Source: Leptolyngbyaceae cyanobacterium MO_188.B28
GTDB taxonomy: Bacteria; Cyanobacteriota; Cyanobacteriia; Phormidesmidales; Phormidesmidaceae
DNA length: 35,746 bases
Assembly (NCBI GenBank): GCA_030065175.1
Contig: JASJDH010000010.1
Coordinates: forward strand, 1 to 35,746
Direction of reading: 5' to 3'
The notes under the pieces were generated by a model. It ran no database searches and was not told where the DNA came from. It saw nothing but the letters and a program-made list of their open reading frames with translations. Made by a program: the position numbers and the translations under genes. This document shows, piece by piece, positions 5,400 through 7,599 of this stretch (within the stretch, counting starts at the first letter, position 1; every line of letters begins with the position of its first letter).

Positions 5400-5539
5400 A
5401 GTTCAAGTATTTCTCCGGTCAAGCACGTTGTAGTTAGTTTGGTAACGAGATAGTTGAAGCGAAGCTGCGACCCAGTGCAACCAGGCGACCATCCTTATGG
5501 GACAGGGCTCCCACGCCTCAATATTTCCCTAAAAGACTC

Positions 5540-5629
5540 AATCTATGTTTGCAAATGCACTGAGGAGTCAACGAATTTATGTCGTTTCAGGCCTCATTTT
5601 TTCTAATTGCGCCTCGTTGCAGATTCGCT
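5540..5629 (+). repeat. Copy 1 of ~90-bp repeat (uninterrupted version of the group II intron target)
   Basis: ATCTATGTTTGCAAA...TCAACGAATTT...TTTCAGGC...TCTAATTGCGCCTCGTTGCAGATTCGCT; matches 6530-6621. Confidence 0.7.
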
Positions 5630-5967
5630 TCAACTAATCCGCAGGGATGTTCTTCGCTTTTTAGCAGGACATTCGAAGCGCAACTTCAAGTATAAATATA
5701 TACCCTAATAAGTGTTCTTTACAGCATAGCCAGTCCGTCGCTACCCTGCAATACCGTTCTCAAACACTTAAAAATTTAGGTATTTTCAACACCGCAACGC
5801 AATAATTTCTTCTGTAGATTCCCATGGATTTTTGCGTATTTTTTCCATCTATAATGTATGAATCATAGAATCCATTTAGGCAAATACTTAGAATACACGG
5901 AATTGGTGACCGACGCCTTTCCACGGGTCCACCGCCTGCCGAGTTTAACTCTGATACTGCTCAAAGA

Positions 5968-6270: not shown

Positions 6271-6529
6271 CTATCCAAAACAATCCTGTAAATCCTGATT
6301 TATACAGACGACAGATCGGCGATCACCTAGTGATAATAACCGTAATAAAGTATAAATTAATACCTATACTTTTCGCGAGGGGCGACGTCAAGGATTCAAA
6401 TATTTCGATGGCGTCGAGGCTTAAACTCCATAAATTCCGATGATTTAAGCAGTGCTGCGACGAAGTGCGATTATTCTGTAACTCTTGTCATATAAGGGTT
6501 TCTTGCCCATGTATTTATACAGATTGCTT

Positions 6530-6621
6530 AATCTATATCTACAAACATGCTTACAGCTCAACGAATTTGCCTTGTTTCAGGCTTTGGACCCGGTCTAATG
6601 GCGCCTGGTTGCAGCCTCGCT
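6530..6621 (+). repeat. Copy 2 of ~90-bp repeat, interrupted by the group II intron
   Basis: ATCTATATCTACAAA...TCAACGAATTT...TTTCAGGC...TCTAATGGCGCCTGGTTGCAGCCTCGCT ending at the intron 5' junction. Confidence 0.7.
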
Positions 6622-7480
6622 GTGCGATTCGTTTAGCTGGAAAGTCGATCCCTCAAGGATTGACGTGCAGCTAGCGAGGTTCAAAAGAACCTTGACAACT
6701 CAGAGGTCGGATCAGTAACCCCTGGACTTCATATCCAAGGGAGAGCCTGACTGGTCGAGCATAGACCCAGCACCTGCACCCCTGCGGTAGCGACTGAGCA
6801 TCAATCCGTAAAGCGGGGTGAAACGGACGGGAACTCTTAGATTCCAAAGAATTCCCCACCAAGGTGAGCTGACAAGGCTAGGAGACAAACCTATGTCCGA
6901 ACCGTCGTTATGCAACTGAGGGGAAATGGAGTCTGACACCCCTCGTCCAAAATGGACTTGGTGATTCTCAATGAGGCTAGCGAACCTCATCGGAGTGCGA
7001 CCATATCACCCGGCGGAAAGTAGGAGCCTAAATCAGCCCAAATGCCCGACTTCTGGGAACGAAGTAACTCCTCAAGAACATCCTTCAGAAACCTTCTGGG
7101 ACTCTGAAGTAACCAACTCACGGCGCATGTGTTCAGAGGAGAAGGATTGTGTAAGAAGCCAACGCCGTTGGGAAAGCCAGCGGATATGCTGACGTACACA
7201 CTGCTGTCGAGGCAAGTTTCAATGTTGGAGGATAACATGACGGAGTCTGTCAATCAGATATCTGATGCCTGGATAACAGTTAACTGGCCTCAGGCCAGCG
7301 TACTGTGTTCCGCCTCCAGCAGCGAATCTATCGCGCCTCACAACGGGGTGATGCCTCAGGGCTATTGCCCAATCTGCCCCTGAAGTGGGGAAGAGGTAGG
7401 AGAGGAGTCGTGTGAAGGAAAACTTTCAGGCACGATTCTGAAGGCGGGCGGGTCTTCGTGAGAGGACTCGCCTAGCCAAC
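6622..7480 (+). mobile_element. ORF-deleted group II intron (859 nt)
   Basis: 5' GTGCGATTCG; EBS2 TGCAAC (6911-6916) pairs with IBS2 GTTGCA (6608-6613); EBS1 AGCGAA in the loop of ATGAGG-CTAGCGAA-CCTCAT (6971-6990); 34-nt domain V GAGTCGTGTGAAGGAAAACTTTCAGGCACGATTC (7405-7438); domain VI with candidate branch A at 7474; 3' end AAC. Confidence 0.88.
7237..7404 (+). pseudogene. Remnant N-terminus of the group II intron-encoded protein
   Basis: MTESVNQISDAWITVNW in one frame, then RLQQRIYRASQRGD in a shifted frame, like the start of cyanobacterial intron RT/maturases. No RT domain follows. Confidence 0.65.
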
Positions 7481-7599
7481 TCATCTGACCTATCTTGCAT
7501 TGTAGAATGCACGCTCTTTCATTGCCGGGTTAATAGTCCACAATGCTTCCAAAGAAATCTGGCAAAGACGAAGCTATCTAATTAGATTCTGGAAAATCA

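Follow-up and report, generated by a model that had tools for sequence, protein, structure and literature searches.

The window, meaning the whole 35,746-nt stretch of DNA analysed here, carries a bacterial chloroplast-like-type (CL-like) group II intron of 859 nt (6622..7480) that has lost its open reading frame (ORF) and lies, like every window feature given below, on the forward strand. Its D5-D6 region (7403-7480) matches the Rfam model RF00029 with 47.3 bits against a gathering score of 40 (E 2e-6). The intron starts with GTGCG at 6622 and ends with AAC at 7480, in agreement with the GUGYG/AY rule, and both junctions are fixed independently by unoccupied copies of the target, one at 5569-5640 of the window, one in the genus mate (G001:C640) and others in further elements of the host genome. 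A consensus fold with relatives and a single-strand fold place domain I at approximately 6628..7066, and folds likewise give the approximate limits of domain II (7068..7141) and domain III (7144..7205), the latter being conserved in other cyanobacterial introns. Domains V and VI occupy 7403..7480 according to RF00029 and the fold, with the branch A at 7474 as the bulge of D6. The strand of D1-D3 (6622-7240) is more stable than 20 shuffles (z -3.7) and that of D4-D6 (7340-7480) more stable than 200 shuffles (z -5.4). An earlier note, made from the letters alone, had placed a group II intron with exactly these coordinates, 5' end and bulged A, and had proposed covariance-model searching and folding as checks; both bear it out.

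The full-length relatives of this intron are 2.4 kb long, are 81-82% identical to the window copy and encode an intact 585-aa reverse transcriptase-maturase-HNH protein, the intron-encoded protein (IEP), with the domains RVT_N, RVT_1, GIIM and HNH and a match to TIGR04416 at 333 bits. IEP-bearing copies occur in Leptothoe spongobia TAU-MAC 1115 (L052/L088) and in genome G031 (L053); L. spongobia (G045) and Leptolyngbya sp. PCC 7375 (G003) belong to the same family as the host. The alignment with L052 and L053 reveals that intron positions 1-735 are fused to the last 124 in the window copy, with about 1.54 kb gone, so that the ORF was taken out within domain IV and the ribozyme was retained. 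The deletion junction at 7355..7357 in the same alignment separates two remnants of the IEP. Codons 1-40 persist at 7237..7355, where the loss of a single base at about 7294 shifts the frame (tblastn with the L052 IEP, and alignment), while codons ~553-585 persist at 7357..7455 with one TGA stop and run into D5-D6. The earlier note had described a maturase cut to its first ~30-40 codons with a frameshift, which holds for the N-terminal part; it had overlooked the C-terminal remnant, and the target of the intron was also unidentified there. The introns L052/L088 and L053 resemble the window copy in ribozyme DNA, in a 3' exon position 11 nt from the repeat tip and in the EBS1 loop, but differ from it in keeping the 585-aa IEP and in having EBS1 AGCGTA with IBS1 TACGCT.

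The intron interrupts a 38-bp terminal inverted repeat (TIR) of Tn3 type, 11 bp from the tip, at the right end of a 196-bp miniature element (6437-6621 plus 7481-7491). The 5' exon (6595..6621), recognised by a TIR weight matrix and by pairing, is the inner 27 bp of the right repeat and includes IBS2 (6608-6613) and IBS1 (6616-6621), while the 3' exon (7481..7491), recognised by the matrix and by the tips of relatives, is its outer 11 bp. The left inverted repeat (6437..6474) is degenerate and stands at an offset of -158, as in G031, where a related intron sits likewise with the opposite repeat at this offset. About 1 kb upstream, an uninterrupted sister miniature element of 194 bp (5447..5640; TIR scores 29.7 and 34.8) lacks the intron and supplies empty targets. 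Splicing would be expected to join the 5' exon end ...GCCTCGCT to the 3' exon start TCATCTG... or, with an alternative extent, ...GCAGCCTCGCT on the 5' side to TCATCTGACC on the 3' side. The 5' flank (6559-6621) is a repeated sequence, with empty copies at window 5569-5640 and at G001:C640, and the intron flanks, when joined, match the empty repeat across the junction. No orthologous empty site was found in the genus mate, where the flanking locus is unmatched, and the paralogous empty repeats were used instead. In most relatives with a 3' end read, the 3' flank resembles the 11-nt transposon tip (TACAGCACCCC, TTCAGCACCCC, ACTTTAGGGCC and the like).

A repeat-model search of 59 genomes found the repeat at 16 places in the host's own genome, many of them paired in inverted orientation at a spacing of either about 100-200 bp or about 3.3 kb. 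On contigs C527 and C405, pairs of perfect 38-bp repeats with a GGGG tip, about 3.3 kb apart, enclose Tn3 transposases of 982-983 aa that match PF01526 (E about 1e-132), meaning that autonomous Tn3-type elements with this repeat reside in the same genome, and the C527 element is flanked by a 5-bp duplication, TGATA. The 38-bp repeat is therefore a Tn3-family TIR, and its identification as a REP-like intergenic palindrome was rejected in view of the same 3.3-kb pairs. The two transposons themselves (L132 and L133) appear intact and carry a transposase gene only, no resolvase being seen in either. The weight matrix, for which ten of these repeats from outside the window were used, scores the joined flanks at 24.3 for the right repeat and 17.7 for the left against a null maximum of 6.6 (best of 300 random sequences), whereas the right repeat scores only 5.2 with the intron in place. 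When an inverted partner of the window repeat was sought without gaps, the left repeat on its own agreed at 21/38 positions, which is not above letter shuffles (maximum 24). The interrupted element shows no recognisable 5-bp target duplication (6432-6436/7492-7496). The degenerate left repeat and the missing duplication would suit a reading in which the flank is an unrelated intergenic palindrome or REP-like element whose Tn3 link is coincidental; against two transposase genes bounded by this very repeat, one of them with a duplication, matrix scores far over the null and the same offset in G031, that reading is highly improbable. The name TIMEs has been given to miniature elements that carry 38-bp Tn3 repeats (PMC4133298). 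The two window elements are like them in their 38-bp Tn3-type inverted repeats, in lacking a transposase and in being a few hundred base pairs long, but differ in their length of 194-196 bp, their core, their cyanobacterial host and, in the interrupted one, the splitting of one end by an intron.

The recognition elements of the intron read this target. EBS2 (TGCAAC, 6911..6916) pairs at 6/6 positions with IBS2 (GTTGCA), and EBS1 (AGCGAA, 6979..6984), in the loop of an ATGAGG/CCTCAT hairpin, pairs at 5/6 with its own IBS1 (CTCGCT), all of which reproduces the pairing first noticed in the letters. EBS1 also pairs at 6/6 with TTCGCT of the empty repeats in the window and on C405, C527 and C635, and EBS2 at 6/6 with GTTGCA of C405, the two together reaching 12/12 with the C405 TIR. 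EBS1 and IBS1 covary, as L052 and L053 have EBS1 AGCGTA at TACGCT, a two-sided change. These data constitute direct sequence evidence for RNA-guided targeting in this intron family and, combined with established knowledge of group II introns, suggest that insertion took place by retrohoming.

Constraint on the ribozyme was assessed with a consensus structure derived from L052, L053 and L054 only, leaving the window copy out. The window copy has 34 substitutions of its own; with them, 167/178 pairs are still formed against 154 +/- 2.1 at random, and 0/5000 placements reach 167. These substitutions preserve pairs beyond chance, so the lineage of the window intron was under selection for a folding RNA. 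Such conservation has built up since the split from the relatives and need not reflect the time after the ORF deletion; selection after the deletion does not follow from it. The catalytic triad in D5 is given as AGC or CGC (PMC4424553), and the relatives have one or the other; the window copy has AGU with a compensating A on the opposite strand. This triad would lower the case for catalytic activity, not that for descent.

The host assembly (the window being its contig C459) is a draft of 8.48 Mb in 650 contigs and is 83% complete, so a helper protein may be absent from the data. Its sole CL-like IEP, on C587, has 560 aa and an HNH domain, lies inside its own intron and is a doubtful helper candidate, being just 42% identical to the L052 IEP. 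The other reverse transcriptases are those on C276 and C220 and one fragment; the first two were also considered as helpers but belong to another class, and the C276 intron matches RF02005. The earlier note had asked for an IEP-bearing intron with a similar ribozyme in the rest of the genome, and this search gave no IEP closer than 42% to the family IEP in the 83% complete assembly; its view that splicing or mobility would need an IEP from another intron agrees with the dependence in trans proposed below. In the genus mate (90% complete), nothing matched the L052 IEP at E 0.001. No second copy of the window intron, and no second instance of its deletion junction, was found in the host assembly, which has on C429 a 44-nt match (L002:1501-1544, 82%) to part of domain I without surrounding intron sequence. 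No match to the window intron was found in phage collections, and plasmid collections gave only pieces of 46-58 nt on three cyanobacterial plasmids.

The genus mate has four D5 hits. Two introns there (L018:249-1062 on G001:C441 and L158 on G001:C934) form a second ORF-deleted subtype, with the deletion after codon ~36, and were set aside as proof of trans-mobilisation since their flanks are similar too. A 57-nt 3'-terminal fragment (L003:905-961, G001:C1694) is 96% identical to the window intron and lies directly between a Tn3-type repeat and an 11-nt tip. As this fragment is found at another repeat, it shows that introns of the window lineage moved within the genus in the past.

Several genomes contain just domain VI of this intron family; it stops precisely where the intron does on its 3' side, and the repeat tip comes next. 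Such hairpins with a Tn3-type tip were seen in L031 at ~1490-1556 (G033), L038 (G003), L042 (G045) and L040 (G026), those of L031 and L038 reading GGGGTGCTGAAGGCGGGCGGG...CTAGCTAACTxCAxCACCCC, and the G033 hairpin is bracketed by two copies of AATAA that resemble a 5-bp target duplication. Some domain-VI-only units start with the opposite tip GGGGTGCTGAA, part of which, GGTGCTGAA, recurs where D5 meets D6 in some relatives. The simplest reading is that the units would have arisen when the stretch from the left tip to the D5-D6 junction was lost from a miniature element that contained an intron. Such a unit may also transpose as such. With 0-5 short D6-only matches per genome, a high-copy dispersed repeat is ruled out. 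Near-perfect palindromes in L080 (G044:C20), L073 (G013:C99), L074 (G019:C25) and L083 (G026:C18) have one domain VI arm copied as the other arm (GTTAGCTAGGCGA...TCGCCTAGCTAAC). In L055 (G035:C160, reverse strand), a domain-VI 3' end, a tip and then directly the target of a second intron lie just upstream of the intron 5' end; this second intron is 3'-truncated, and the arrangement is one of successive insertions at one place.

Among known systems, the ORF-less introns of the T. elongatus TeI3 family have lost ~1.5 kb in DIVb and keep remnants of the N- and C-terminal ends of the ORF, whose frame is broken (Mohr et al. 2010, PMC2882425). They are derived from an ORF-bearing intron, are present in 17 copies with a demonstrated trans-acting driver IEP and prefer other mobile elements as sites (PMC2882425). 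The window intron is like TeI3 in deletion size, in both ORF remnants, in the broken frame, in an ORF-bearing ancestor and in a mobile-element site, and the likeness to cyanobacterial ORF-less introns proposed in the earlier note is thus real; it is unlike TeI3 in having one copy, no recognisable driver and a Tn3-type inverted repeat as its target. Bacterial ORF-less introns are rare and are nearly always accompanied by a related IEP (PMC4424553). C.te.I1 of Clostridium tetani is ORF-less, has no recognisable related IEP beside it in its genome and self-splices in vitro (PMC4424553). The window intron shares the first property and, as far as its incomplete assembly goes, the second, but is known from sequence, unlike C.te.I1 with its self-splicing. 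In the open-access literature, a limited basis for a negative, no paper was found that describes homing of group II introns to inverted repeats of Tn3 type.

Given the observed identity, boundaries, deletion, target and pairing, we consider with good confidence that the locus holds a formerly mobile, now stranded ORF-deleted intron in a Tn3-derived miniature element. Its ancestor would be a chloroplast-like-type intron encoding the 585-aa reverse transcriptase/maturase/HNH protein, which retrohomed into Tn3-family TIRs. EBS2 and EBS1 of the intron RNA would read the 38-bp repeat at GTTGCA-N2-TTCGCT, with reverse-splicing 11 bp from the transposon tip, which becomes the 3' exon. The window copy would have entered the right end of the 196-bp miniature element, the ~1.5-kb domain IV deletion would have removed the ORF before or after insertion, and splicing or movement would now rely on a protein in trans. 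Because no suitable-looking helper protein is in the assembly, the copy is most likely stranded at present, that is, a structurally sound, probably immobile non-autonomous retroelement, and we infer its present inactivity on these grounds.

Two other histories bear on this reading. It is unlikely that the intron is in current use, spliced and moved by an unassembled or distant IEP such as that of the C587 intron. The retained ribozyme pairing, the 12/12 match of EBS1 and EBS2 to intact transposon ends in the genome, an architecture like that of the TeI3 introns (driven by TeI4 IEPs in Thermosynechococcus), the 17% of the genome left unassembled and the past movement indicated by the 96% identical fragment in the genus mate are all in its favour, but it has to contend with a single copy, a deletion junction found once, a best IEP 42% identical, the AGU triad and the one-base mismatch in IBS1. 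Trans-mobilisation of the window copy now is doubtful, and of the earlier label 'ORF-deleted (trans-mobilisable)', the first half is supported, as the intact IEP-bearing relatives reveal the loss, and the second is not supported. The chances fall a little short of even that an IEP-bearing intron inserted here, lost its ORF in place, never moved in ORF-less form and is decaying; the single copy, the frameshift and stop in the ORF remnants and the degenerate host element agree with such a course, while the pairs so strongly kept by window-unique substitutions are unlike long neutral decay, although a recent deletion is compatible with them.

The intron is itself an ordinary kind of element, and what is less expected is its choice of target; its position inside a Tn3-type TIR is what this analysis adds, and the target is the more useful part of the finding. 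On balance, we lean slightly towards a Leptothoe-like cyanobacterial intron lineage that has specialised on the TIRs of Tn3-family transposons and of their miniature derivatives and enters them 11 bp from the tip. What it leaves would be ORF-less copies and solitary domain VI hairpins joined to transposon tips. If so, the intron would gain a moving supply of targets and break the transposon end that it enters. ORF-less bacterial introns being rare and nearly all known ones found beside a helper, a case without an evident helper bears on the loss of autonomy. Whether group II introns can follow and disable Tn3-type transposons becomes a testable question with a retroelement that reads the TIR of a DNA transposon and whose pairing changes in step with that repeat.
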